From Chrysoperla carnea (lineage: Eukaryota; Arthropoda; Insecta; Neuroptera; Chrysopidae): 64,000 bases of DNA. Position numbers and translations under genes: made by a program. Position 1 is the stretch's first letter, and each line of letters opens with the position of its first letter. The stretch spans positions 931,001 through 995,000 of the forward strand of contig NC_058338.1 in the NCBI RefSeq assembly GCF_905475395.1, given 5' to 3'. Shown piece after piece: positions 1 to 62,039 of the stretch. The notes under the pieces were generated by a model. The model saw nothing but the letters and a program-made list of their open reading frames with translations. It was not told the origin of the DNA and ran no database searches.

Positions 1-371
1 GGTGGATTTTTTAAAGTTTCACTTTTCGGTGTAACCACTGCAAAACTATCGTTTTGTGTTGTTTCGATCGGCACAACTTGTACGTCACTTAAATTCAATT
101 TAATTTCGGTTGGATCAAGTGTGGGTATGGCACAAAATGTTAAACGATCGTGACGTTCATTCGTAAAACATTTTGGCTCGAAATGAAACTGGCAGACGAC
201 TTTGTTGCGTAGCTTTTCGATTGGTAACGTATGGAAATGTGCTTTTTGTGCGTTTATTATCCATTGTTCGCATCGTTTTCGATCTTTGATCGGAAAATGA
301 AAGTAACGTATTTTCTCATCGGTCGATGCACTCAAATTACAATTTCTGTATGAACAACGGAAACCACCCAT
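1..371 (-). CDS. THAP-domain zinc-finger protein, N-terminal part (runs off the left edge)
   Basis: The reverse strand from an ATG at 371 is open for 123 codons to the window edge. The first 85 residues carry a complete THAP zinc finger: Cys6-x4-Cys11, Cys60-x2-His63, the invariant Trp37, Phe69 and the closing box AIPT at 81-84 (AVPT-like, Pro83). A FHFP motif at 24-27 is typical of the family. THAP domains bind DNA sequence-specifically; members are transcription regulators or derive from P-element-type transposases. Residues 86-123 are a Thr/Val-rich linker with no recognisable fold. The C-terminus lies outside the window, so neither the partner domain (coiled coil, transposase-like) nor the length can be judged. 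The gene is antisense to AP-3 beta, whose 5' exons must also lie further left, so it may be nested in an AP-3 beta intron. The domain call is strong; the specific family member is unknown. Confidence 0.85.
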   Translation of the reverse strand, partial: MGGFRCSYRNCNLSASTDEKIRYFHFPIKDRKRCEQWIINAQKAHFHTLPIEKLRNKVVCQFHFEPKCFTNERHDRLTFCAIPTLDPTEIKLNLSDVQVVPIETTQNDSFAVVTPKSETLKNP

Positions 372-908
372 CTCATTTAATTGTTTTTACTTTTTAAATT
401 AATATTTTTTGGTATTTTTACTTGTGTTCCAGTTTTGGATATCGGTAATCGGTTTACTTGTCAAAAATATTTACTATTCGATTAGTTAGTTACAAACGTC
501 AAATTCTAGGGAGTTATTTTTAGTTTTTTTGTGGTACCAACCTTCATGTTAGTTAATATAGTTTGTCTGATATAAATATTTCCTTACTGACTGTTTATGT
601 ATTGTAAAAAAATATTTAATATTTAATCCAATCAATCTGCGAAAAGGATGACAAAATTGTTATCAGAAAACAAGAAATACGTTGTTATAGAAGAAAACAA
701 GCCAAGAAACAAAAAACTGTGCATCAGCAAACCGCTTTTTTGAAATTTGAGAAAAAAAATTTTAAGATTTCCAATCATTTAAATTTTCCCCGGATTTACT
801 CGAAAATGTAAGCGTTAGGTTTGATTTAAAATTAGGGTAGAAAACTTACTTTTTTAATTGAGAGGAAAATGGCAAGACAACGCTTAAATTTTTTTTATTT
901 ATTTTCAG
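372..908. other. Non-coding stretch between the THAP start and the first visible AP-3 beta exon
   Basis: No coding exon was found on either strand. It should contain the THAP promoter and 5'UTR and is probably also AP-3 beta intron sequence, because the exon at 909 begins after a good polypyrimidine-AG acceptor. A stretch near 650-715 resembles one near 39140-39205, suggesting an old dispersed repeat. Confidence 0.5.
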
Positions 909-3455
909 CATGACATTGTCAAATTACAAGTATTAAATTTAGCCGTAAAATTATGGCTTACAAATCGTGAACAAACTGCATTACTATGTCAGTATGTGTT
1001 TAGTTTAGCACGATACGACCAAAGTTATGATATTCGTGATCGAGCACGATTTTTACGACATTTCACTGTGCTGGCCGAAGGGAAAATACTGCCCACACAT
1101 GCACCAGAAATATTTTTACAAACAAAAGCAGCACCTCAATTGAATTCTACATTTAAAGGTCAGTTATTGAGATTTTGGAATTATATTATAATAAAATTTT
1201 TAAGGACTTAGGCAACTTGTACACACCAGAGAAAAGCACCAAATTCGTTTTAGTAGCTAGTTAGCTTTCAATTTTTTGATAGGAATTAACTTCTTCATCA
1301 GCCATCTTGAATTTTAGAGCGGCCATTTTAAGTTTATTAGTGTAAATGTCCCAAATGTGCAATTCCTACTTTTATAATGGCCGACATTAAACTCAAAAAG
1401 AGAATTGGTTCTTGTCAAAAATTGAAAGACTATAAAAATTTGGAGCTTTTGTCCGGTATGTTCTCATTAAGCTACGATCACTTAACCATTTTCTTTTTCT
1501 AAACAGATCGGGAACAATTTCAATTGGGCTCTTTATCACATTATATAAATGCACCAGCTGCTGGATATCGTGAATTGCCACCATTTGCGACGACACCTAC
1601 GTCTAGTGCACTACGAGAAGTTGATACATCATCCACGGAAAATACTTCAACGCATACAAAACAAGTAAATTTATTTGTTATTCCGATTTGTTCTATTGGA
1701 TTGAATCGGAATTCAATCGGAAAATTTTATCCAAATAAACCCAATTCATTTCAATTAAATTTCAAAGTTATAATTGGTTTATATTGGAATCAATCGAAAC
1801 TTTTTTTACAATTGAAGCTTATTCATTCCGATTGATTGAATTGGAAATTTCCGATTCATGAATCGGATTTTTTATCAGAGTTTACAATATTTAATTTCTT
1901 TTTGATTTATAGAAAAAAATATTTTATTCTGACACTGAAGAAGCAAGTTCGGCAGCCGAATATAATAGCAGCAAAGATTCGGACAGTGACGAGGAAGAAG
2001 ATGAAGAGGGAAGTAATTCTGGAGAGAGTGATAGTGATGACAGTGAAAACAAAGGATCAAATAGCGGCGAAGAAAAGTCTGGGTATGAAAAAGATGAAAT
2101 AAAATATGTTTTGGAAAATGTTAATTTTTATTTTGCAATTCTAGATCGAATTCATCGGAAGAAGGCAGTTCAGATGAATCAGATAACGACAGTGAATCAG
2201 ACAGCGATGCAACATCAAGCGAAGAAAAATATTCAGCTCCATCCACAGACGAAGAACCCAACAACACAACCATTCCACCAGCATCCAAAAAAACGACCCG
2301 AAAAAAATCCAAAAGTCCAGAACCGAAAAACAATTTAGATTTATTACTTGATCTCGATTTTAATTCAGAAGTAGCTCCCGTAATGACGCCGTCGATTGGT
2401 GGATTTCTATCACCGATACAATCAACCATTATGCCGAATAAAACAGCGACGGCTGACGTACAAAATATTATACAAACAGTAGCGCCCAAATGTGTGCCAC
2501 AAACCACGCATGAATTATTAAATCGTATCAAAGGGAATGGATTGAGTGTAACGTATCGATTTACAAGATCACCACATTTATTTTCACCACAAATGGCTTC
2601 GGTTGAATTGATCTTTACGAATGGATCAAATCAGGAAATTACTGATATTCATGTGGGTCAAAAGGTACGTCGAAACTTTTGTTTACAGCAAAATTTACCT
2701 TTTAATTTAGCTTTTTGCTCCAAAAAGCTCATTTATAATTGTAAAGTAATGGATTGTGATTTGAAATTTTCAGCATCTGCCAGTTGGAACATTTATTCAT
2801 GATTTTGCAACAATTGGAGTTTTACATCCCGATAGCAGTTTGCCAGGAACGTTAGGAGTTAATTTTAATGATTCCACACAACCGATTAGTTTTGAAATTG
2901 TTTCTTCCGCAGGTAACAAACAAGTACATCCCTAAAACGTCTCCCCCAGGACGTAAATAATTTAAATTGCAGTATAAATGTTTGTAAAAATAATTTGCAG
3001 GTAGCTCCTTAGTAAATTTACGATGTCCCGTTGGTGAACTAATTCAAGCGGTAACGATGTCCGAAAGTAATTTTGCAATTGAATTAAATCGTTTACGTGG
3101 AATGTACGAACATACAGCCAAGATTCATTTAACTCCAACAAATGAGTTTAATTTGGATGAGCTCATTTATAAAGCTGCCAATGTCTCAGCAATCGAGAGC
3201 ACCGATCAAATTTTAAGGTTGGTTATATTTACTTTTAGGGAGCATTAGGTATCATTTGTTATCTCAAGTAACGCGTTTTCTTGTATTTTCCTTTACAGAT
3301 ACACAGGAAGGACATTATCGTCTGCGTCGTTGCTCCTGTTGAATATAAGTAAAACACAGGATCAAATGAATTTAACGGTGAATTGTGAGAAGATCATGAT
3401 TGCTTCCATGTTGTTGGACGAAATCGTTACCAATATTAAACAGTACAAGAAATAA
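909..3455 (+). CDS. AP3B1: AP-3 complex subunit beta, C-terminal seven exons (5' part outside the window)
   Basis: Exons 909-1158, 1507-1664, 1913-2082, 2145-2664, 2774-2912, 3001-3217 and 3299-3455 join in phase at every GT-AG junction and give 536 residues ending in TAA. The first exon is the end of the adaptin trunk ([10 protein letters not shown] is diagnostic). Then come the [12 protein letters not shown] segment, a Ser/Asp/Glu-rich hinge opening with [10 protein letters not shown] (exons 3-4), and the beta-3 C-terminal ear, ending NIKQYKK. AP-3 beta is a large subunit of the heterotetrameric coat that sorts cargo from endosomes to lysosomes and lysosome-related organelles such as pigment granules (Drosophila ruby, human AP3B1/AP3B2). 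The family has about 1,100 residues, so roughly the first half is missing on the left. A poly(A) signal AATAAA lies at 3698-3703. The gene converges on PYROXD1. The family call is near certain. Confidence 0.95.
1665..1912 (+). other. AP-3 beta intron with degenerate inverted motifs
   Basis: This intron carries repeated ATTCCGATT/AATCGGAAT-like words in both orientations, including a dyad with 7-base arms (GATTGAA / TTCAATC) near 1693-1712 and another around 1828-1868. They look like decayed palindromic repeat sequence. No coding potential is needed to explain them. Confidence 0.4.
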
Positions 3456-4028
3456 GTATCCATTCCATTTAGACCACCACCGCCCGTGTGAGATCTGGGT
3501 GTTCGAATTTTCTCGCTTTTATCTCGAAGACACCTTTAGCCAAAAATGTTTGTAGTTTTCAAGTTCCTCGGAGATAAAAGTCGGAAAATGAGATACCTCA
3601 CGATCTGTCTGGGTCTGACCTGGATCTTGGAGTGATTGGAAGTGAAGGTTGAGGTATTTATTGATCTGATCTGATCTGATTTCTACTTATTTTTTAAAAT
3701 AAATATTTAATTTTTTTATTTTATAACTTTCAAATAAATATATTTTTTGTTAGTCCAATCAAAATCATTCTTTCATGGATTTTAATTTCAAATCATTCCA
3801 CACAAAATACTATTAATTTCCCTTTTTTTTTTCAAAAGAATGGGAAATGCAAATTAAAAGAGTCCTTATTCCTCATTAAAAGGTATCCTGTATAAAAAAT
3901 TTGTGTTCAAGATCGATAAAACCCAGAAAATAGGGGAATTATTGGTACTGAAAATTATCTGGAAATTGGCAGGAAATTTAAAATTAAAAAAAACCCTTTT
4001 TAATAATTCACTATTTATTATAAATTTT
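3456..4028. other. 3' intergenic region between convergent AP-3 beta and PYROXD1
   Basis: It contains the AP-3 beta 3'UTR with AATAAA at 3698-3703 and a short GATCT microsatellite at about 3661-3681. On the reverse strand the PYROXD1 poly(A) signal AATAAA lies at 4018-4013, about 10 bases after its stop codon. The two transcripts therefore end within roughly 300 bases of each other. No other gene is seen. Confidence 0.6.
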
Positions 4029-5863
4029 TTAATCAAAATAGTCCTCGATATCAATATCAGGATTCAATAAATCCTCCCCATAAACACTCACATCTAATTG
4101 ATTTAAAATTAAATTTTCCATGGTTTCTTCCAAATCGGTATCACCAATTAAAATCGCTCCTTGAATTTTACCATCTTGTATAACCAATTTAATATATTCC
4201 ATGTTTGGGGTAATTCGAACCAGACATTCATATTGATTATGTAACTTTTGACCATTAAATAGACCCAACAGAATTACTTTGAACCCGAATAAAGTTGTCG
4301 AATGCGAGAATAATTCAAAACAGAAATCTTGTAACACTTGTTCATCCTGTATGCGGGATATTATCGATTTAGCTGCATATGAAGCCATTTGTCGTGCTTG
4401 AGACCATAAACGCATTTGAAACCAATGTTTAGCGTGTTCCCAATTAGCGGTGCAAACATCTCCAGCTGCATATACACCTACAAAATTTAAGAAACTCTCG
4501 GTTAGTACAGGAAATTCATTTAAAATCAGGGTCGGCTAACTAATGTTTTAACTCCCGAACCAAAAAAAAAGTTGTGTTATAAGTTTGACCGCTATGTGTG
4601 TGTGTGTCTGTACACCTACAAAATTTAAGAAACTCTCGGTTAGTACAGGAAATTCATTTAAAATCAGAGTCGGCTAACTAATGTTTTAACTCCCGAACAA
4701 AAAAAAAAAGTTGTGTTATAAGTTTGACCGCTGTGTGTGTGTGTGTGTCTGTCTGCCTGTGGCATCGTAACACCTAAACAGATGAACCGATGTAGATTTT
4801 TTTATTTCATTTGAGAGGTAATTCAATTTAACTCAAAAAAAATGTCGGTCATCCAGGTACTTTATCCAGGTGCGCCAATTTTTTGGCGAGTGTAATATAT
4901 TTAGGGGATCGTTTAAATACCTGAAATAGATGTTTCCATTTGACCATTAACTTCAATACCTCCATCCGCAGCTAATTTTAACTCCTGATCCGTTTTAATA
5001 TTCGAACAAGGTAAAACACCCGTCGCCGAAACAATTAAATCGCATTCAACACACGTCCCATTTGTTAATCGAACCGATAAAGGCCATTCTTCATTTTCGA
5101 GATGCGTAACTTGTTCAATTTCCGAATTATAAATTATCGAAACACTTTTCGAACATGTTCCCGAAATATCAAATTTCGTATGCCAATCAGGTCCTAAAGC
5201 AACCCCCCCACTACGAGATCCATTCCCAATTTCAGAGTATCGTAAACGTTTCACGATAGTTTTAGCTTGCCCGGACGCATCCGCATCTTTCATTTTAAAT
5301 TGGAAAAATTCCGCAGCACCGGGATCTAGAAATGTCGATGATATAAAATTATCTTTAACTGCCCAAATAATTTCGATATTTTTTAATTCGTAAACTAATT
5401 CGGTTGCAATTCCACCATTTCCCACAATTAAAATTTTTCTCGACGATTTAATTCGATCTTGTAAAATCGATACCGAATCTGTATCGCGAATTCCTAACAC
5501 GAATTTATTGTTAAAATCGATTAATTTCGGTTGTCCTCCCATACAAAGACATACAAATTTGTATTTAATACAACGATTCGATTCAGTTCGAATTGTTTTT
5601 TCGTGGGAAATAATTTCGAGGAGTGTATCAAAAATGATTGTAACATTCGAATATTTTTCGTGTAAAGTTTCGGCATTTTTTTCTTCGACATCGAAATTAA
5701 CGATTGTTTTCGTGATTGCAACGAGATTTGTAACCGTTTTAATTAATTGTGATTTTGTTATTAAAATTATTTTTAAATTTGGACCAAGAAAAGCCAAAGT
5801 TTCGCAACATGTCACACCCGCAATACCCCCACCCACTACAACTATATCCGCTTCCGTTTCCAT
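4029..5863 (-). CDS. PYROXD1: Pyridine nucleotide-disulphide oxidoreductase domain-containing protein 1
   Basis: Two exons, 5863-4921 and 4477-4029, join in phase (G plus GT) and encode 463 residues; the human protein is about 500. The N-terminal FAD dinucleotide-binding motif GGGIAG is at residues 11-16. The second, NAD(P)H-binding motif GNGGIA is at 148-153. The conserved DLIVSATGVLPC segment ends exon 1, and the diagnostic AAGDVCTANWEHAKHWFQMR opens exon 2. PYROXD1 is a class I flavoprotein oxidoreductase of nucleus and cytosol; human mutations cause myopathy, and a role protecting the tRNA ligase complex from oxidation has been reported. The start is fixed by ATG followed at once by the FAD motif, as in orthologues. 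The MRPS18B stop lies one codon upstream in the same frame, so the gene has almost no 5'UTR of its own. The 443-base intron carries a transposon piece and a 138-bp tandem duplication. Confidence 0.95.
4473..4750 (-). repeat. 138-bp tandem duplication at the PYROXD1 intron/exon 2 border
   Basis: Two near-identical units start at 4473 and 4611 (period 138), both beginning TACACCTACAAAATTTAAG. On the coding strand this copies the intron 3' end, including the acceptor AG and the first few bases of exon 2, so a decoy acceptor lies upstream of the real one at 4477. Each unit ends in a (GT)n run followed by GTCTG. Confidence 0.85.
4555..4850 (+). mobile_element. Dispersed repeat family B inside the PYROXD1 intron
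   Basis: The hallmark is GTGTGTCTGTCTG followed by GGCATCGTA, CCTAAACRGATGAA and a T-run with TTTCATTTGARAGGTA. The same series occurs at 18015-18140, 30537-30800, 51170-51425, 52430-52600, 52965-53070 and weakly at 56880-56930. It has no coding capacity, so it is a non-autonomous element. The class is not determined. Confidence 0.6.
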
Positions 5864-5866
5864 TGT

Positions 5867-6415
5867 TTACTTGTAATATAAACTGTAATCGTAATTTCGG
5901 AATGGAACATCAAATGTTAGAATTCCTCGATCGCGTGCTCTTTGAACGCTCACCAACAGTTCGAAATGTTTTTTCTGGCATAAACCGGTTTTTTGATAGC
6001 TTAAAATCGTTCCCGTATGTGGGCAAATAAATTGTTGTAACAATTCGGGATTATTTTCACTTAAAACTAAATATTCATCTCGACATATCGGACATGGATT
6101 TCCCGTGGAAATTACTTTGTTTCGAATACACGTTTTACGTGTTTTTTTCGGTGCAAATGCACCTTTAAAGTTTCGTCGGTATTGTGTCCAAACCGGTTGT
6201 TCGCCGTATGTTTCTTTGTATGCGTTACTTTTTAAATATTTGATACTCGTTTCGACGGGAATCACTTGACTACGATCTTTTGATATTCCCACAGGTTCGT
6301 TAGTATTTGTGGTTGATTTTTTTTCTGTAGATTTTTCCGTACAAAGTTTTGTTGTGGAAATTGTACGAATTGAAAAACTACTTTGTAAAAATGGTTTTAA
6401 ACGTATCAAAGACAT
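5867..6415 (-). CDS. MRPS18B: Mitochondrial small ribosomal subunit protein bS18 family, MRPS18B
   Basis: A single exon of 182 residues. The first ATG at 6415 gives an N-terminus rich in Arg, Ser, Leu and Phe and lacking acidic residues (SLIRLKPFLQSSFSIRTIS), a good mitochondrial import signal. An upstream GTG reading is not needed. The core shows KTRKTCIRNKV, NPCPICRDEY, QQFICPHTG and TGLCQKKH, the spaced cysteines of metazoan S18 paralogues, and ends with ARDRGILTFDVP and a YDYSLYY tail typical of MRPS18B. The protein is part of the mitochondrial 28S subunit. Its TAA stop is separated from the PYROXD1 ATG by one codon (ACA), in frame, so both probably share one transcript. It is divergent from NFATC2IP. 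The family call is strong; paralogue B rather than A or C is supported by the C-terminus. Confidence 0.92.
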   Translation of the reverse strand: MSLIRLKPFLQSSFSIRTISTTKLCTEKSTEKKSTTNTNEPVGISKDRSQVIPVETSIKYLKSNAYKETYGEQPVWTQYRRNFKGAFAPKKTRKTCIRNKVISTGNPCPICRDEYLVLSENNPELLQQFICPHTGTILSYQKTGLCQKKHFELLVSVQRARDRGILTFDVPFRNYDYSLYYK

Positions 6416-7219
6416 TACAAATGAAAACAAATTTTCACACACTTTTCTGCTTAAATTTTACGATTTTATTGGTTATGAAATGAAATAAAAAAATAGCATG
6501 TATAAAATTGACGGTCTATTTAACTAAATAAGTCTTTGGCCCTTTTGATATTTTTCAATGATTATTACTCTAATCAAATTAGATTTTTAAACTCAAATTT
6601 CGACTTTTGTATTTAATTAATATTACAATTTATTTGAAAAATACAATACTTTTTGTTACTGTCAATTTTTGAGCTCTAACAGCCTTGATTCCATTACCAT
6701 TACAATAAAATTCTAAACATTTTGAATAAACCGCGGTAAATGTACTTGAAATGAACGCCATCTTATGTTTGCGAGTTGAGTTTTAATTGACAGACAAGTT
6801 GAGTTTATATAAATAAAAATATTTACGGTTTTTGAATTTGAATTTTTTTATTTAATTAATATTACAATTTATTCGAAGCATTCTACGTTTTGTGTTAGTT
6901 TCATAGTTTTTATGATCGCTAAATATATAAGGTTAGTTATCTTTTTAATTTAATTAATTTATGAAAAGGAATTATTTATATTTTGTTATTCATTTTTCAA
7001 ACTAGCGGGAAGTTTTTATAAAAATTCATTTTGTATTTTTTTACAAACAAATTTAATTTTAAAACATATTCGTGTTAAAATTTTGCGATTTGAATACAAA
7101 TACAGTAAAAATGACGCTAGGCTGCCTTGAAAAATTTCCCCCCTAGGTTTCCTCTACGAAGTTTTTTGGGTTATTTTTGATTTTGAACAATTTTGCCAGA
7201 AGACAAAATTTCAATATTT
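6416..7219. promoter_or_regulatory. Divergent upstream region of MRPS18B and NFATC2IP
   Basis: This 0.8-kb stretch, together with the transposon that follows, separates two divergently transcribed genes and should hold the MRPS18B promoter. It is AT-rich with no ORF. A block of about 30 bases reading ATTTAATTAATATTACAATT occurs twice (near 6610 and 6848), each followed by a TTTTGTTA-like word, so part of it is a short direct duplication. No clear TATA box could be chosen. Confidence 0.4.
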
Positions 7220-7784: not shown

Positions 7785-8840
7785 ATGTCTTCGAGTGAAG
7801 ACGAAGATTTTTATTCGGATCCAGTAAAACAATTAGCAAAGTTTAACGATGTCGAATCAAATGACGAAGATGATTTTGAAATCAAAGAAAATGTACCTGT
7901 ATCACCGTCTCCAGTTAAAATTGCTCCAAAACAAAGAGGACGAAGATCAAAACAGATTAAAAATGACGATTTAGAAATTCTAAAGACTGAAGTTATAAAA
8001 AAAGGAGTCAGATCGAAATCCCGAAGCAAAAAATCAAAGGTAAAAGAAGAGACTTTAGAAGTTGTAAAAAGTCAAAGACCACGAAGATCTCGAGCAAAAA
8101 AAACATATGTAGACGAAGATGACGAAGATTTGGATATATTAGAAGTGATTTCGTTGAGTAACCGACGAAGATCAACGAAAAGAACTCGAACAGCTCAATC
8201 AAAATCACCAAAACCACGTAGAGGACGTAAAAAAAGGACCCGACAACAAAATTCCTCGATAATAATTTTATCCGACAACGAGGATTCCGTACAAACGAAC
8301 GCCACACAAACCGAACAAATCGTTTCGGATGTAAATTTCGAACATAAAATCAAGGTTTGGTGGCAATGTAACGAATTGACCGAATTTAAAATTCGTAAAT
8401 ATCAAAAATTACAAACAATCTTCGATTTTTATGCGAATCGAGAGAAAATCCCGTTAAATCGTTTAATTTTTTTATTAAATAATAAGACAATTTATCCAAC
8501 GGATACACCGGATATGCTGAAATTGGAACGGATTCATATTATCGAAGGGGGTTGTATAAATGAGGATGTGGTAGACATGGTGGGGGGCGCACGAGAATCG
8601 AATAATGCTGCGTCGATGATTCAATTAAAAGTTCAATTACGTGATCGAAAAAAACCATTACATGTGTTTATCAAGAAAACGGAACCGTTAAGTGTGCTGA
8701 TGGCGAAATGTACCGAAGAATTAGAATGTGATATTAAGAAGTTACGTTTTGAATTCGATGGGGATTTATTAAATCCAAACGATACGCCAGAATCCTTGGA
8801 CTTTGATGGTGGCGAGTGTATTGATGTATTTGTTAAATAA
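7785..8840 (+). CDS. NFATC2IP: NFATC2-interacting protein homologue (Rad60/Esc2-type, two SUMO-like domains)
   Basis: A single open exon of 351 residues from the ATG at 7785. The 45 open codons before it read through the family A transposon and are discarded. Residues 1-75 are acidic. Residues 75-165 are Arg/Lys/Ser-rich with RGRR and KKRTR clusters, likely nuclear signals. A SIIILSD segment near 160 looks like a SUMO-interacting motif. Two ubiquitin-like beta-grasp domains follow, at about 186-260 (HKIKVWWQC to HIIEGG) and 277-351 (IQLKVQLRD to CIDVFVK). This layout matches the RENi family (Rad60, Esc2, NFATC2IP; Drosophila CG4449), which works with the SUMO E2 Ubc9 and SMC5/6 in genome stability. 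The protein ends at the second domain with no diglycine, as in the family. An acceptor-like TTTTTTTAG at 7762-7770 may join an upstream non-coding exon. AATAAA overlaps the stop codon. Confidence 0.87.
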   Translation: MSSSEDEDFYSDPVKQLAKFNDVESNDEDDFEIKENVPVSPSPVKIAPKQRGRRSKQIKNDDLEILKTEVIKKGVRSKSRSKKSKVKEETLEVVKSQRPRRSRAKKTYVDEDDEDLDILEVISLSNRRRSTKRTRTAQSKSPKPRRGRKKRTRQQNSSIIILSDNEDSVQTNATQTEQIVSDVNFEHKIKVWWQCNELTEFKIRKYQKLQTIFDFYANREKIPLNRLIFLLNNKTIYPTDTPDMLKLERIHIIEGGCINEDVVDMVGGARESNNAASMIQLKVQLRDRKKPLHVFIKKTEPLSVLMAKCTEELECDIKKLRFEFDGDLLNPNDTPESLDFDGGECIDVFVK

Positions 8841-10040: not shown

Positions 10041-10475
10041 AAGTAAAGCTAATAATAATTTAAAAATAATGTTTTAGTACATAGAGCGACATCTGTGAAT
10101 AGAAAATGAAACTTGATAATTTAAAATAATGTTTAGTACATAGAGTGACATCTATGAATAGAAAATGAAACTTGATAATTTAAAAATAATGTTTAGTACA
10201 TAGAGTGACATCTTTGACTAGCAAATAAAACTTGATAACATAAAATTAATGTTTAGTACATGGAGTGACATCTATGAATATCAAATAAAACTTTTAATTA
10301 TTCCATAGTTCACTTGGTTGTTCATAGATGGAACTCTACGTACTAAAATATTTTTAAATTTCTTATAGTTTAACTTGCCGTTAGATGGCACTCTATGTAC
10401 TAAAATATTATTTTTGAATTATTATGTTTTACTTGGTAACATATAGATGGCGTTATATGTACCAACACAGTAGTA
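10041..10475. repeat. 60-bp satellite array in head-to-head (inverted) arrangement
   Basis: Four forward units start at AGTACATAGAG-type words at 10076, 10135, 10195 and 10255. Each contains GACATCTNTGA(A/C)TAG and AAATRAAACTTGATAA. Three reversed units follow with the inverse word (AGATGGNACTCTAYGTACT) near 10325, 10383 and 10445. The array therefore switches orientation around 10295-10310. Confidence 0.85.
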
Positions 10476-11215
10476 ATTCCTGATAGGTAAAATAAAAAGT
10501 AAGTATTTTCACCCCGAAAACGGCAAATTAGAAATTTGTAAACAGAAAGTTAATGGTCTGCAAATTTTTTGGTGAGTATGACCCTTCGTGAGCAGACCAC
10601 TAACTTTCTGATAGAAAATTTGTGAATTTCTAATTTCTGACTTTCGGGATGAAACCACTTACTATTTTCTTTACCTATCAGGTATTACTAGTAGTTCCTG
10701 ATACGTAAAATAAAAAGTAAGTGGTTTCACCCCGAAAATCAGAAATTAGAAATCAGCTATCAGAAAGTCAGTGGTCTGCAAATTTTTGGTGGTGAGTATT
10801 ACCCATCGTGAGCAGACCACTAACTTTCTGATTTTCTAATTTCAGATTTTCGGGGTGAAACCACTTACTATTTTCTTTACCTATCAGGTATTACTAGTAG
10901 TTCCTGATACGTAAAATAAAAAGTAAGTGGTTTCACCCCGAAAATCAGAAATTAGAAATCAGCTATCAGAAAGTTAATGGTCTGCAAATTTTTGGTGGTG
11001 AGTATGACCCATCGTGAGCAGACCACTAACTTTCTGATTTTCTAATTTCAGATTTTCGGGGTGAAACCACTTACTATTTTCTTTACCTATCAGGAATTAC
11101 TAGTAGTTCCTGATAAGTAAAATCAAAAGTAAGTGGTTTCACCCTAAAAATCTGAAATTAGAAAATCAGAAAGTTAGTGGTCTGCAAATTTTTTGGTAAG
11201 AATGACCAAATTTTT
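10476..11215. repeat. Tandem array of self-complementary units of about 206 bp
   Basis: Units run 10479-10682, 10697-10888 and 10903-11094, with a broken fourth from 11109. Each unit is itself an inverted repeat. The left arm (CCTGATANGTAAAATAAAAA, then GTAAGTGGTTTCACCCCGAA, TCAGAAA and GTGGTCTGC) is mirrored in the right arm (GCAGACCACTAACTTTCTGA to ACTTACTATTTTCTTTACCT and ATCAGG). The spacer is 30-40 bases with GGTGAGTATGACCC. Units are joined by a 14-base linker containing TTACTAGTAGTT. Confidence 0.9.
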
Positions 11216-11284
11216 AGGAAAATCAGAAATTTTTTCTTAAAGACCAATTTCTGATTTTCTAAAATATTGGTCTGTATTGAGCAG

Positions 11285-11755
11285 ATAAAGTTCTGGTTTT
11301 CGGGATTCCTATCATGTAATAGTAATGTTATTTTAAACTAACTTTCTGATAACACATTGATAAAAAAACAGACCAACAACAAAGTTCTGGTTTTCGTGAC
11401 ACCTATCATGTAATAGCAATTCCTTTTTAAATCGGATAACAAATTGATAAACAAGCAGACCAATAACAAAGTTCTGGTTTTCGCGACACCTATCATGTAA
11501 TAGCAATTCCTTTTTAAACTTACTTTCTGATAACAAATTGATAAACAAGCAGACCAATAACAAAGTTCTGGTTTTCGCGACACCTATCATGTAATAGCAA
11601 TTCCTTTTTAAACAAACTTTCTGATAACACATTGATAAACAAGCAGATCAATAACAAAGTTTTAGTTTTCGGGACACCTATCATGTAATAGCAATTCCTT
11701 TTTAAACTAACTTTCTGATAACAAATTGATAAAGAAGCAGACCAATAACAATAAA
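11285..11755. repeat. 94-bp tandem repeat, five units, apparently derived from the palindromic array
   Basis: The landmark TTCTGGTTTTCG recurs at 11291, 11385, 11472 and 11566, and in altered form near 11661 (periods 87-95). Each unit has CCTATCATGTAATAG, ACTTTCTGATAAC and AAGCAGACCAATAAC. The words GCAGACCA, ACTTTCTGAT and CCTATCA also occur, in order, in the preceding 206-bp palindrome, so this looks like a collapsed, non-palindromic descendant. Long reverse-strand ORFs here are artefacts of the repeat. Confidence 0.85.
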
Positions 11756-11939
11756 TAATTAAATACACGTCTATGATGTGAGAGAATAATAAAATTTTAA
11801 AAAACATATTATGCGTGTATAGTCATCTAACGGTGAATATAATAACCCAATGCATTTCTAGTCGTATGTAACGCTTAAACCCTATGGAGGAGTAGTTTAC
11901 TCCACCAAATGGTGAGATTGTACGGCGCATATAGAAATA

Positions 11940-12345
11940 ACCTTCTAATATGGATCTGTATTCATTGGCAACGGCTAAGTTTGTACATAAACCATAACTT
12001 TATTCTAATTCACCAGATTGCAGCACCAGGCTAATCGATAGTCGTATAGTTCATCAGCAACAGCTTAGTTTGTACTCAATCCATAACTATATTCTTATTC
12101 ACCAGATAGCAACACCAAGCTAATCAATAATCTCAATCAAGCTTTGTACAGCATGGTTTGTGGAACCATACCTTTATTCTAATTCCCCAGACAGCAGCAC
12201 CAGGCTAATCGATAGTCGTACAGTTCATCAGCAACAGCTTAGTTTGTACTCAATCTATAACTATATATTATTCACCAGATAGCAACACCAAACTAATCAA
12301 TAATCTCAATCAAGCTTTGCATAGCATGGTTTGTGGAACTGATTT
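11940..12345. repeat. 172-bp tandem duplication built of two related monomers of about 86 bp
   Basis: AGCACCAGGCTAATCGATAG occurs at about 12022 and 12194, giving a 172-bp period. Between them a diverged half-unit reads AGCAACACCAAGCTAATCAA. Each half has CCATAACTNTATTCT and TTCACCAGAT. This is a higher-order (dimeric) arrangement in about 2.3 copies. A short perfect hairpin GGAGTAGTTTACTCC lies just upstream near 11889. Confidence 0.8.
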
Positions 12346-32799: not shown

Positions 32800-34640
32800 G
32801 AAATTGCTTACAATTTTCTTTCAAAGATTGATTGATTTTTAATTCAAAACTGACATAATTGCAACGATTACTCAATCAATAAAAATTATTGTATTTTTAG
32901 GGTTCCGATTCAATTATTAGCGTATTTAGTTTGGAAAATTAGTCGGGATCTTGATCTGGATACCATTTGATAATCTATTATGTACTTCGATAATTTTTAT
33001 TTTATTTGGGGTCAGAATTTTTATGAATAATTTTCCAAGCAAGAAAACATTAATATTTGTTTTAAATAATTAAATTTAGTCTTTCGAACGTCAGTTACAA
33101 AGATTGAGGAAGTTGTCCCATTTATCTCCAGAATAAATGTACATTGATTTTCGTGAAGGTGTTACCTTTACAGTGTAGCCCTTGTTAGATAATCGTATAA
33201 ATAATTTACAAATAAAATATTGTCCCAATGGTTAAAGGAAGGATTTGTTTTTTTGTTTTTCGTACACGTATTTACGTGTACAATATACAAATAGGGTAAT
33301 AAATTGATAAGCATATGCTATATTTTTCAATTTGCGTGCGTGCATTTTTGTTTACAAAATGTTCCAAGATGAATGCAAATAGTATAAAGGATGTTCTATA
33401 ATTGACCGTAAAATCCTGAACTTTCTGAATGTGCTTATCAAGAGGAACGAAAAAATTCTTTACCAAATTTCAATGTGAGGTCTAATTTCTAGGATTGTTG
33501 GATAAAATATGAGCTTCCACGAACTTTTTCATTGGACCTTTTGTTTTCTTGAAGAAAAGTAGGTTATTTAGCAATTGTCTCTGATTATCGATTCTGAAAT
33601 ATCGACAGAAATTTCTCCAGGGATATCACTAGAAAAAATAAGTATTGTTGCTTTAATTATTGATCTTTGCACTTGATACACCCTGTCTTCGATATATTTT
33701 CGATTTACTTCGAAACGTATGTTTTATGTTCCGATAAAAGTAGGTGTATTTTTTTTAGATAGATAGCCAATATTTGTGTCCAAGAAGATTTTTTTGCCTC
33801 TATGTCCAAAATTTTTACTATTTCTAAAAACACAGTAAATTCGAAAAAAAATCGTAGGACTAAGACTCTAAGACATTCTTTCGGGCTAAGACTGTACTCA
33901 GGCAATTCCATTTGGGTTTTCTCCAAAAACTTTGCTGCTTCTTGTAAGTACTCCTATATTTTCATACTTGATCGATATATTATTTTTTTGACAACCTTAT
34001 TAATTTATTGTCTATGGAATATTTATTTGATACAACCCTTATTGCGCTTGCTGTATTCTATAAACTTATACTCAAAAGTTGTAAAATATTACAAAAAACA
34101 GAAACGATATATTTTTTGTACTGTTTTGCAAGACCAATTTTTTTTCGGGACATTTTGTCAGATTAAAGTTAATAATTTCGCCAAATATAGTTAATAAGCA
34201 TGGAGCCCGTGACAGTAAAACTGCACTAATATCGTGGATACAAATGCTTTAATAATATTTTTATGAATGCTGTACATACATATGTTGTAATAATTTTAAA
34301 ATAAACTACACTTTTGGTTTATTTTCTTACATTGACGGACAGATTGATGAAAGTGATGGAGCCACAAGACCTCCCAGTGTGCGCCTATCAACGATTTCTA
34401 CATCGTATAAAATAGCTTACTATTGTACTGAGAGCTATTAAATAATATAATGATAATTGTATTATTATTTAAGAAGCTGTACCTCGAAATTGGGTACCCG
34501 AATTCCTATTTTGCTTTAACTGAAATCTATGAAGGTCCCATTGAAATGGCAAAGACAATAATTTCCTTACTACCAACGACAAACTTTTTTAACGTGTAGT
34601 TACTTCTGTTACTAGAAGGTCTTAACAGATTAGGAGATAA
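32800..34640. other. No gene seen (1.8 kb)
   Basis: Upstream region of the 32.4-kb gene, with short ORFs of low-complexity composition. A 73-codon minus-strand ORF (33926-33705) and its 130-codon opposite-strand overlap show no domain and were not called. Confidence 0.35.
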
Positions 34641-34653
34641 TTTGAAAAACCAA

Positions 34654-35160
34654 CAATTAAAGGCATGGACCAGCTACGAGGGAGGGCGAATCGCCAAAAG
34701 CCTGTTGGGTGAAGGAAACTCGCTCGATAACAGAGCCGAAGAGATCTTGAAACTAAACAGAGCTGATATTAAAGTCATCGTAGAGTTACTCACAGGGCAT
34801 GATAACCTGAACAAGTTCCAACATCAGATTGGAAAAAGACATTCTCCCGCGTGTGACAGATGTGGAGAAAATTCAGAAGAAACATCGATTCACTTTCTCT
34901 GTTACTGCCCAGCGCTCATACAGCAGCGAAGGAAATGGTTTGGTTCGGCCATAGTCGAACCAGAAGAAATTAGGAAACTCAGCGCTAGGCAGATCCTGGG
35001 TTTCAGTACATCAGTTGGTTATAGTAGCCACTGAAAAGCGTAGCGGGGATAGAGTACAAGGGTGTATTTGGCTAGGTGCTCTGAACCATTGCTTCGAGGC
35101 CTGATGTTCGAGCATGGCCCGCTAACCCCCATACCCATACCCATATCCATACTTCTGTCA
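34654..35160 (+). mobile_element. Non-LTR retrotransposon ORF2 C-terminus and 3' end, copy 2 of 3
   Basis: About 125 open codons from LKAWTSYEGGRIAKSL through ELLTGHDNLNKFQHQIGK and the Cys/His motif CDRCGENSEETSIHFLCYC, ending before ARQILGFSTSVGYSS and a stop at 35032. The tGH...C..CG..EET..H.L..C pattern is the C-terminal module that follows RNase H in I/LOA/Jockey-group LINEs. The 3'UTR continues through GCGTAGCGGGGATAGA to a tail of CCATAC repeats (35127-35152). It lacks reverse transcriptase and most of RNase H, so it is a dead 5'-truncated copy. Confidence 0.85.
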
Positions 35161-42689: not shown

Positions 42690-44330
42690 TAATAAAAAGA
42701 CTGTTTTGTCTAGGAATTCCTTAGGAAAAAAAAATTTACGATAATATTCTTAAGAACTTTTCCAATTTTGAAAGCCCTTCTAGTTTGGGTAGGGCTCTTA
42801 TCTTAGAAGATAATTGCCAATTGCCAGTTGCCAATTGATGAGTAATTATTAAGAACGATATTCAAATATGAAAGTCACGCGATGCATTTCATTGAAATCC
42901 TTACTATTGTAAAATGAATTACATAAAATGCGTTCGAAAATTTCGCAAAAAGATATGCAAAAATTAAATTGAAGGAAATTAAAAAAAGTTTTTAATTTGA
43001 CTTAAATTTGGCTTACAAGCAAACTCAACTCAGAAGGCAAAGATTGTTGGACTGCTAAAAGCCATGATTGGAAATAATCTTGAATTATCTATTTTTGCTT
43101 TCATTAAAACTCTTTTGTAATTTCTTTTACGGTATTTTCATATTTTGATAAGAAATGCGAAAAAAAAATTCACGAATCTTCCTTATTTAGACAGAGGATG
43201 AAATATAATTTCTGGAATTTTTTGGTATATTAAGAAAATATGGAGATCTGATTGATTTATCATAAGGAAAAATGTGATCAAATAGAGGAAATTATTGTAC
43301 GAACATTTGAGAAACATGTGTAACATGTATTGTTAATTTTTGGTTTGATATTTGACCCAAACTTTTCGAACACCTTGTACCTTATTTTCAAAAAATATAA
43401 AAATAAATTTTACAATATCTATAATAAAATTAAATAAAAACGCAATATTATATGCGTGACCGGATATACATTATATTATTGTATTGGCGAAACCGAACTA
43501 ATTCAAGCACCTTACATAGTCTAGGACCAGTCGTTGTTATTTCAGTATAAAAGGGTATTCCACTATTTTTGAAAAAGTACTTCAAAATGTTGATTTTGCT
43601 AATAAAAAGCCACCAAAAATTTATTTTGGAAAAATACACACGCTTTCTTGCCAAAAACTTAAATTAAATTTTCAACCTTTTTTAAACTTTCAAAAACGCG
43701 GTTATCCAATTTGATGACGTAATATGGGTATCATTATATGAAATAACACAAATAAGTTTGACAGATATATTCATAGACATCTGATTATAATAAATATAAA
43801 TACTTATTATCTATGGATATATTATACCCAGCTGTCTACACTGAACTAATTGAAGGTCTGTGGCTCATACCGTTATGACATCACAGCAGGGCCTACAGTT
43901 TAAAAATTACGATTTTTAATTTTAATATTTTAAAAGAAAAATGTGCTTTTATGACTCGAAATCAGTGATTATATTTTTGACTCACGATAATAATACCCTA
44001 TTTCTACGCTTGGTTCTTGACGAACAACAACAAATTTTTATACTTTAAAAATAATAATGAACAATGAACTGTTTTTATCACTAAAAAAAAACCACTTAAT
44101 TATTGTTTTAACAGTTCAACAATGACTTATTTTTGAATGAAATACGGACGAACCACGGTCATGTCATGTCATGATTCATGTCATTGTTGAGTTATTATTC
44201 AATACGGAAAATCAAATTGATTAATTATACAGTTTTAACTTTACAATAAAACAAATTTTGATGGATATGATTTGTAAATTTAACACCAATAACCTTTTCA
44301 AGGTCTTAAAAAAACAAATTTTATCAGAGT
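42690..44330. other. No gene seen (1.6 kb)
   Basis: AT-rich sequence. Short direct repeats only (AATTGCCA near 42818; TCATG near 44160). Confidence 0.35.
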
Positions 44331-44335
44331 AACTT

Positions 44336-44800
44336 ACAATTAAAGGCATGGACCAGCTACGAGGGAGGACGAATCGTCAAAAGCCTGTTGGGTGAAGGAA
44401 ACTCGCTCGGTAACAGAGCCGAGGAGATCTTGAAACTAAACAGAGCTGATATTAGAGTCATCGTAGAGTTACTCACAGGGCATGATAACCTGAACAAGTT
44501 CCAACATCAGATTGGAAAAAGACAATCTCCCACGTGTGACAGATGCGGAGAACATTCAGAAGAAACATCGATCCACTTTCTCTGTTACTGCTCGGCGCTC
44601 ATACAGCAGCGAAAGAAATGGTTTGGTCCGGCTATAGTCGAATCAGAAGAAAATAGGAAACTCAGCGATAGGCAAATCCTGGGTTTCAGTACATCAGTTG
44701 GTTATAATAGATTATTAAATCATCCAAAATTGCTCTGGCGCTCATACATCCTTAATAAAGTACATAAATCGACTTTAAAACGTTTAAACTCTTAAACTCT
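44336..44800 (+). mobile_element. Non-LTR retrotransposon ORF2 C-terminus, copy 3 of 3
   Basis: 44336-44715 is nearly identical to 34654-35026, with the same Cys/His motif (CDRCGEHSEETSIHFLCYC), and starts at the same base (CAATTAAAGGCATGGACCAG). After GTTGGTTATAATAG it diverges from copy 2 and stays open for 29 more codons (RLLNHPKLLWRSYILNKVHK) to a stop near 44795, so the 3' part is either the original C-terminus or flanking sequence. The 3'UTR and CCATAC tail are absent. Confidence 0.8.
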
Positions 44801-61266: not shown

Positions 61267-61515
61267 GGAGCACAAGTGCACAAGTGCTCCACTGCACAAG
61301 TCATAGTAAAATACTATGACTTGTGCACCACTGCACAAGTCATAGTAAAATACTATGACTTGTGCTCCACTGCACAAGTCATAGTAAAATACTATGACTT
61401 GTGCTCCACTGCACAAGTCATAGTAAAATACTATGACTTGTGCTCCACTCCACAAGTCATAGTAAAATACTATGACTTGTGCTCCACTGCACAAGTCATA
61501 GTAAAATACTATGAT
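61267..61515. repeat. 39-bp minisatellite in which each unit is a 33-bp hairpin
   Basis: Units start at 61294, 61333, 61372, 61411, 61450 and 61489 (exact 39-bp period); the last is truncated. Each has GCACAAGTCATAGTA, then AAA, then TACTATGACTTGTGC, a 15-bp stem with a 3-base loop, followed by a 6-base spacer (TCCACT or ACCACT). Unit 5 starts with C instead of G. A related near-palindrome GAGCACAAGTGCACAAGTGC precedes the array. Both strands are open in one frame and encode nearly the same 13-residue repeat (AQVIVKYYDLC / AQVIVFYYDLC), a consequence of the symmetry. Confidence 0.95.
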
Positions 61516-62039
61516 ACTATATGTACTCGAAAATTAATAAATAAATAAAGTATTAGGCTCAAGTTCGCTTTAAATTTGAGACAAAAAATGTATTTGAGAA
61601 AACAGGACTAGATTTTGAAATGTGTATGGTCATGTAGAATTAGTTCAAAAGATACCCAATATTTATCTCTAGCCAATTTTCCAGACATTTTGAGGCATCT
61701 TCTTACACGTTTTCTTGTATCAATAACCCATTTTTCACAAAGAGACTTCGCTTTTTCTATTACCACTTTGCAGAGCTTGTCTCGAATTTCGGTCAGCCTA
61801 GTTGCTAATGATTCAAGATTCAAGATCACATTTAACATAATATTTTATCAGACAAATCAAGAAAGTTGATAATTTATGTAACCATCAGCGTAGATGCCAT
61901 TAGTAACTGCTGACAGACAAAGGTCGAGTCAGCCCTGTCAGTAGAAAATACGTGCCTTTTCTATTATGAATAGATTAGTAAAGTTTGGCACTAAATTTTT
62001 AAATAATAAATTTTCCAGAAATCAATTCTAATAAAATGG
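61516..62039. other. No gene seen
   Basis: Two mutually overlapping ORFs at 61608-61869 lie on opposite strands. Neither has a recognisable motif. Confidence 0.35.

Follow-up and report, generated by a model that had tools for sequence, protein, structure and literature searches.

A closely spaced MRPS18B and PYROXD1 gene pair in the green lacewing Chrysoperla carnea as a probable dicistronic transcription unit

Gene content of the locus

Two genes, MRPS18B (mS40) and PYROXD1, follow each other on the minus strand of the window, which here means the whole stretch of 64,000 nucleotides of Chrysoperla carnea DNA that was analysed. The features of the pair, in the direction of reading, are as follows.

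5867..6415, minus strand: MRPS18B (mS40) coding sequence, 182 aa, intron-free inside (open reading frame; PDB mS40; Pfam)
5861..5869, minus strand: junction TAA ACA ATG, that is, MRPS18B stop, a single codon and PYROXD1 start (read directly)
4921..5863, minus strand: PYROXD1 coding exon 1 (PDB 8orj/6zk7; Pfam; best place in own genome)
4478..4920, minus strand: PYROXD1 intron, CAG/GTATTT ... TTTTGTAG/GTG, predicted from homology on both sides rather than from cDNA
4029..4477, minus strand: PYROXD1 coding exon 2, with the conserved tail IDIEDYFD (PDB; Pfam Rubredoxin_C)

The two PYROXD1 exons (943 + 449 nt) give 464 codons including the stop, in frame, as calculated from the exon boundaries. 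Exon 1, used as a query from codon 2 and with one or two intron-read codons at its end, matches PDB entries 8orj/6zk7, which we take to be human PYROXD1, in two stretches (E 3.6e-67), and exon 2 matches up to the last residue, through the final IDIEDYFD (E 1e-54). The insect protein ends with the same eight residues as its counterpart in the PDB. Pfam domains are Pyr_redox_2 in exon 1 (5.9e-24) and Rubredoxin_C in exon 2 (1.1e-8). The PDB alignment opens four residues past the methionine, which bears out the view, taken in an earlier sequence-only reading of this DNA, that the start of PYROXD1 is not in doubt. Searches of the insect's own genome, which for both genes score the best candidates only, gave three matches for PYROXD1: a best place with E 1.2e-206 and two weak ones (26-28% identity, E 4.7e-7 and 3.3e-4). 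No relatives were confirmed in the viral sequence collection. PYROXD1 is an oxidoreductase, and the human protein is described as protecting the tRNA ligase RTCB, with its carboxy-terminal tail touching the RTCB catalytic centre (PMC12263435).

A tandem duplication is present in the PYROXD1 intron (4473-4746; period 138 bp, 2.0 copies, 97% matches) and repeats the 3' splice-site region. Its inner copy at 4615 has an acceptor score of 2.42, the same as the real acceptor at 4477, and splicing there would lead into a stop; this score and those below come from generic splice weights that are not specific to this insect.

The identity of MRPS18B, a mitochondrial ribosome protein, is indicated by its match to mS40 in the PDB (E 5.2e-37, 130.6 bits, residues 42-172), where the best S18c reaches 29.5 bits and the best S18a 26.2 bits, and by a Pfam Ribosomal_S18 match (1e-9). 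The gene has one match in its own genome, and no relatives were confirmed in the prokaryote or viral sequence collections. Upstream, its frame stays open as far as 6457 but offers no ATG before the one at 6415, and the mS40 chains of mammals exceed it in length (258 aa for 3j9m_AO). Both ends of MRPS18B are less well anchored than the PYROXD1 start, as the similarity is confined to residues 42-172 out of 182. The two genes look intact, and each has a single strong place in the 559-Mb genome; for the joint stretch, no second copy or retrocopy was found in that genome, the locus itself being the sole match.

The remaining features of the window include neighbouring genes and repeats.

7788-8840, plus strand: Rad60/NFATC2IP-like gene with a SUMO-like domain, divergent from MRPS18B
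2125-2802, plus strand: AP-3 beta C-terminal exon (AP3B1_C, 7e-36), convergent with PYROXD1
3-386, minus strand: open reading frame with a THAP domain (4e-11), running off the window end
34600-35034 and 44310-44795, plus strand: two open reading frames similar to each other which, by eye, resemble the terminal part of a non-LTR retroelement
10055-12339 and 61284-61547: several tandem arrays, with periods of 60, 206, 94, 85-89 and 39 bp

Out-of-frame ATGs are scarce in the Rad60 frame, with 19 where 23.5 are expected (P 0.02). In the intergenic sequence before MRPS18B, two 69-bp copies that are 78% similar lie 239 bp apart (6596-6664 and 6835-6903); these are perhaps remains of a mobile element.

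The junction and its spacing

Read directly on the minus strand, the sequence at the junction is TAT TAC AAG TAA ACA ATG GAA ACG. The TAA of MRPS18B occupies 5869-5867 and the ATG of PYROXD1 5863-5861, in a common frame. Two earlier statements are thereby confirmed, namely that the stop, a lone ACA codon and the start are contiguous, and that the frames coincide, with no further stop between them. Coinciding frames are expected by chance in one case out of three and carry little weight. Two conserved coding sequences, separate, consecutive and non-overlapping, thus lie on one strand, which is one of the features expected of an insect dicistronic locus.

The spacing was compared with chance by a scan for tandem open reading frames (at least 80 codons each, both on the one strand and separated, from stop to ATG, by -8 to +30 nt). 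It returned one pair within the 64-kb window, MRPS18B/PYROXD1, as against none in twenty 10-kb samples of a single contig, C2 (200,000 bases, no N), and none in 20 random 64-kb windows from an order-3 Markov model. The same scan recovers the control pair, Mocs2. Pairs of reading frames as close as MRPS18B and PYROXD1 are not due to chance, and the arrangement is real and non-random.

Candidate transcription and processing signals

The following candidate signals surround and overlap the pair.

6756..6764, minus strand: AAGATGGCG, YY1/Pho- or TISU-like, candidate promoter upstream of MRPS18B (consensus scan)
4014..4019, minus strand: AATAAA, candidate 3' end of a common transcript; its start lies 10 nt beyond the PYROXD1 stop
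5504..5509, minus strand: AATAAA within the first PYROXD1 exon, where a separate MRPS18B mRNA might end, 358 nt beyond the MRPS18B stop
5743, 5569, 5452, 5387 and 4999, minus strand: ATTAAA variants in PYROXD1 exon 1

The candidate promoter element starts 10 bp upstream of TCATTT, an initiator-like motif at 6754, and was found once against 0.00 expected, although the promoter consensuses carry no functional weight. Of the initiator-like TCAKTY motifs, three stand in the 585-base stretch that precedes MRPS18B (1.0 expected) and one in PYROXD1 exon 1 (1.2 expected). DRE-like WATCGATW motifs occur in the same exon at 5522 and 5472 on the minus strand, two against 0.4 expected, and are unexplained. 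Donor-like sites in the MRPS18B frame are located at 6162 (score 1.9) and at 5953 (3.74; inside the conserved block).

A shared messenger and the alternatives to it

Taken together, the analysis suggests that MRPS18B and PYROXD1 probably form a dicistronic transcription unit. This is the most likely reading because the Mocs2 pair of the same genome has a near-identical gap and because Drosophila has 159 dicistronic pairs (PMC4528330). The bicistronic transcript proposed in the sequence-only reading is accordingly retained as the best explanation of the junction, while a PYROXD1 start site within MRPS18B still competes with it. In the proposed mechanism, one promoter upstream of MRPS18B would drive a transcript whose unspliced length is at least 2.4 kb and whose 3' end is close to the AATAAA past PYROXD1. 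The intron within PYROXD1 would be spliced out, as the sequence supports, and MRPS18B would be translated up to its UAA. The ribosome or its 40S subunit would then restart 3 nt further on, at the PYROXD1 AUG in its strong context (AAACAAUGG), and some scanning 40S subunits may bypass the moderate MRPS18B AUG (UUUGUAAUGU) and reach the same start. The products would be two separate proteins, mainly without fusion. Against a common mRNA speak the failure to find a retrocopy of the joint stretch and an exon junction that, at 946 nt beyond the MRPS18B stop, might trigger nonsense-mediated decay, as would be expected in some animals.

The alternatives differ in where the PYROXD1 message begins and in how MRPS18B ends. 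It is plausible, if somewhat unlikely, that the two are overlapping monocistronic genes, with the promoter and 5'UTR of PYROXD1 inside the MRPS18B coding sequence and with MRPS18B ending at a poly(A) site within PYROXD1. The earlier assertion that neither a promoter nor a 5'UTR would fit was too strong, because the PYROXD1 start site could sit within the MRPS18B coding sequence. The AATAAA 358 nt past the MRPS18B stop and the ATTAAA variants in exon 1 would suit such an arrangement, although motifs resembling poly(A) signals are frequent in AT-rich DNA by a rough, uncomputed estimate. Many fly dicistronic loci also yield monocistronic mRNAs, for both genes in 45 pairs and for one gene in 69 of the 159, as given in PMC4528330. 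TCAKTY is absent from the 552 bases of coding strand that separate the start of the MRPS18B frame from that of PYROXD1, where 0.7 would be expected, and this is a weak negative for a promoter there. Alternative splicing of one precursor, in which a site just before the PYROXD1 ATG would receive an upstream exon as in Su(var)3-9/eIF2-gamma, is quite improbable. The layout of that gene pair is found in the same genome, the device is published for it (PMC1435931), and CTAAC and the AG of GATTACAG stand upstream of the PYROXD1 ATG; yet no acceptor scores above 0 in 6300-5864, as compared with 2.42 for the real PYROXD1 acceptor, by the generic weights. Splicing into the junction was rejected on these acceptor scores, which are weak grounds.

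Two further explanations concern the MRPS18B stop itself. If the end of MRPS18B were misread, and the gene continued through the splice donor CAA/GTAAAC into a further exon, its closeness to PYROXD1 would be partly accidental. The longer tail of mammalian mS40 and the end of similarity at residue 172 of 182 speak for this very improbable reading, while the donor at the junction scores -0.45 where the real PYROXD1 donor reaches 2.26 (generic weights), and five tail-like regular expressions found no match in six frames of the window. A human mS40 tail peptide gave no match in the genome, an empty answer that is uninformative in a search of this type.

The other explanation is readthrough of the TAA into a mitochondrially targeted MRPS18B-PYROXD1 fusion, which the sequence-only reading had considered and which is very improbable here. 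The frames coincide without a further stop. The stop is TAA followed by A, probably an unfavourable context for readthrough, and the would-be extension is an independent gene, PYROXD1, with its own ATG. No stable RNA structure was found at the junction (5983-5743), where 184 of 200 shuffled versions are equally stable or more so (z +1.36). Readthrough is described as common in insects, but that of UAA as confined to Dipterans in the survey summarised in PMC4528330. Readthrough accompanied reinitiation in an activated yeast strain (PMC11952965). A mouse study (PMC13059403) reports that loss of PYROXD1 disturbs mitochondrial function; it saw no evidence of the protein itself in mitochondria, while leaving a mitochondrial PYROXD1 possible. 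The proposed fusion is therefore weakly supported. Even jointly, splicing, readthrough or a misread end are unlikely, and the readings are not strictly exclusive.

How the second cistron may be reached

Within the dicistronic reading, stop-coupled reinitiation is slightly favoured over leaky scanning for PYROXD1, because a very short gap matters for reinitiation only. Reinitiation past a frame of 182 codons is normally inefficient in animals. The motif TGGGA, known from termination-reinitiation elements of the TURBS type, is absent from the last 127 nt of MRPS18B and the junction also has no stable structure, so that by these two measures no element known to promote reinitiation can be seen. 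Work on an activated yeast strain describes 80S reinitiation that operates at UAA-A-AUG and without a gap, and that drops with spacers of 10, 30 and 50 bp (PMC11952965). By analogy with this spacer effect, a stop-coupled restart would explain the short distance between MRPS18B and PYROXD1.

The out-of-frame ATGs bear on leaky scanning. MRPS18B contains five of them against 6.8 expected (P 0.19 with shuffled codons, 0.10 with pooled codons), and two of the five have a purine at -3 against 3.5 expected (P 0.21). One, at 5910, opens a reading frame extending beyond the PYROXD1 ATG. The first ATG after the MRPS18B start comes at +320 (P 0.015, a feature picked post hoc). Among three comparison frames, the depletion test gave P 0.02 for Rad60, 0.35 for PYROXD1 exon 1 and 0.47 for the AP3B part, Rad60 reaching its value though it has no second cistron to protect. 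A leaky-scanning signature in the MRPS18B ATG counts is thus not significant. The start contexts, graded by generic context rules, are moderate for MRPS18B (TTTGTAATGTC) and strong for PYROXD1 (TAAACAATGGA), and this combination would also suit leaky scanning.

Antiquity, novelty and significance

The sequence-only reading suggested that the Drosophila homologues may also be neighbours. The fly mRpS18B is CG10757 at 2L:38B6 (PMC2246290), and fly PYROXD1 is CG10721 (PMC6710884). No position of CG10721 was found in the literature among the matches listed, and passages of two fly papers (PMC2246290, PMC3464109) do not name a neighbour of mRpS18B. No paper in the literature searched has CG10721 and mRpS18B together; the names PYROXD1 and MRPS18B occur together there in one paper, a mouse uterus study. 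A description of the pair was likewise not found among the matches listed, and the fly annotation may already have it. Such tight packing of genes is unusual, but the layout and the principle are not new, as dicistronic units are well documented in insects.

It is doubtful that the pair is an old, conserved, operon-like unit of insects in which stop-coupled reinitiation couples the dose of MRPS18B to that of PYROXD1, with slight readthrough that could send some PYROXD1 to mitochondria. If the common mRNA is real, it would tie mitochondrial translation to a protein whose human relative is described as protecting RTCB (PMC12263435). The locus would then also offer a natural test of the way in which ribosomes of animals get to a second cistron when the first has 182 codons and the gap is 3 nt, with Mocs2 in this genome as a companion test case. 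The junction is also a warning for annotators, since neither the MRPS18B nor the PYROXD1 model should be merged or trimmed.

Comparison with known systems

The proposed restart resembles 80S reinitiation in yeast, where translation resumes directly past UAA, including across a one-base gap (PMC11952965). The yeast case differs in being an induced laboratory state with engineered cistrons. The Drosophila stoned and Snapin loci, described as bicistronic with features similar to leaky-scanning bicistrons (PMC11291117), share with the proposed MRPS18B/PYROXD1 message two reading frames per mRNA. Unlike them, MRPS18B has five out-of-frame ATGs and shows no significant depletion.

In the Su(var)3-9/eIF2-gamma pair, as proposed for MRPS18B and PYROXD1, two unrelated genes share one transcription unit. 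In the lacewing genome, a search for eIF2-gamma revealed an open reading frame with chromo, Pre-SET and SET domains directly upstream of the eIF2-gamma exons on the same strand, and by its domains this frame appears to be Su(var)3-9-like; the likeness concerns the layout only, the shared 5' exon not having been located here. The fusion goes back to the ancestor of dicondylic insects and yields a pair of mRNAs that have the same 5' end and encode a shared N-terminus of 79-84 residues (PMC1435931). It differs from the arrangement proposed for MRPS18B/PYROXD1 in that it does not place two reading frames on one mRNA.

A close parallel is provided by Mocs2, which was found in the same genome as follows.

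L006, 1218-1770: Mocs2A/Mocs2B pair, found through a MoaE search

Mocs2A, a frame of the ThiS family, ends with TAA, and 4 nt later Mocs2B, the MoaE frame, begins (TAA AATA ATG). The short gap is nearly identical to that of MRPS18B/PYROXD1, and in this genome the Mocs2 pair is known from DNA alone. In contrast to MRPS18B and PYROXD1, the Mocs2 products are subunits of one enzyme, and the 4-nt gap puts the two Mocs2 frames out of register; to our knowledge, MRPS18B and PYROXD1 are not partners. In Drosophila (CG42503/Mocs2, CG10238), Mocs2A and Mocs2B are described as sharing a bicistronic transcript that is well conserved across distant eukaryotes (PMC2276209). More broadly, of the 159 dicistronic pairs annotated in D. 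melanogaster, only 45 appear exclusively dicistronic (PMC4528330).
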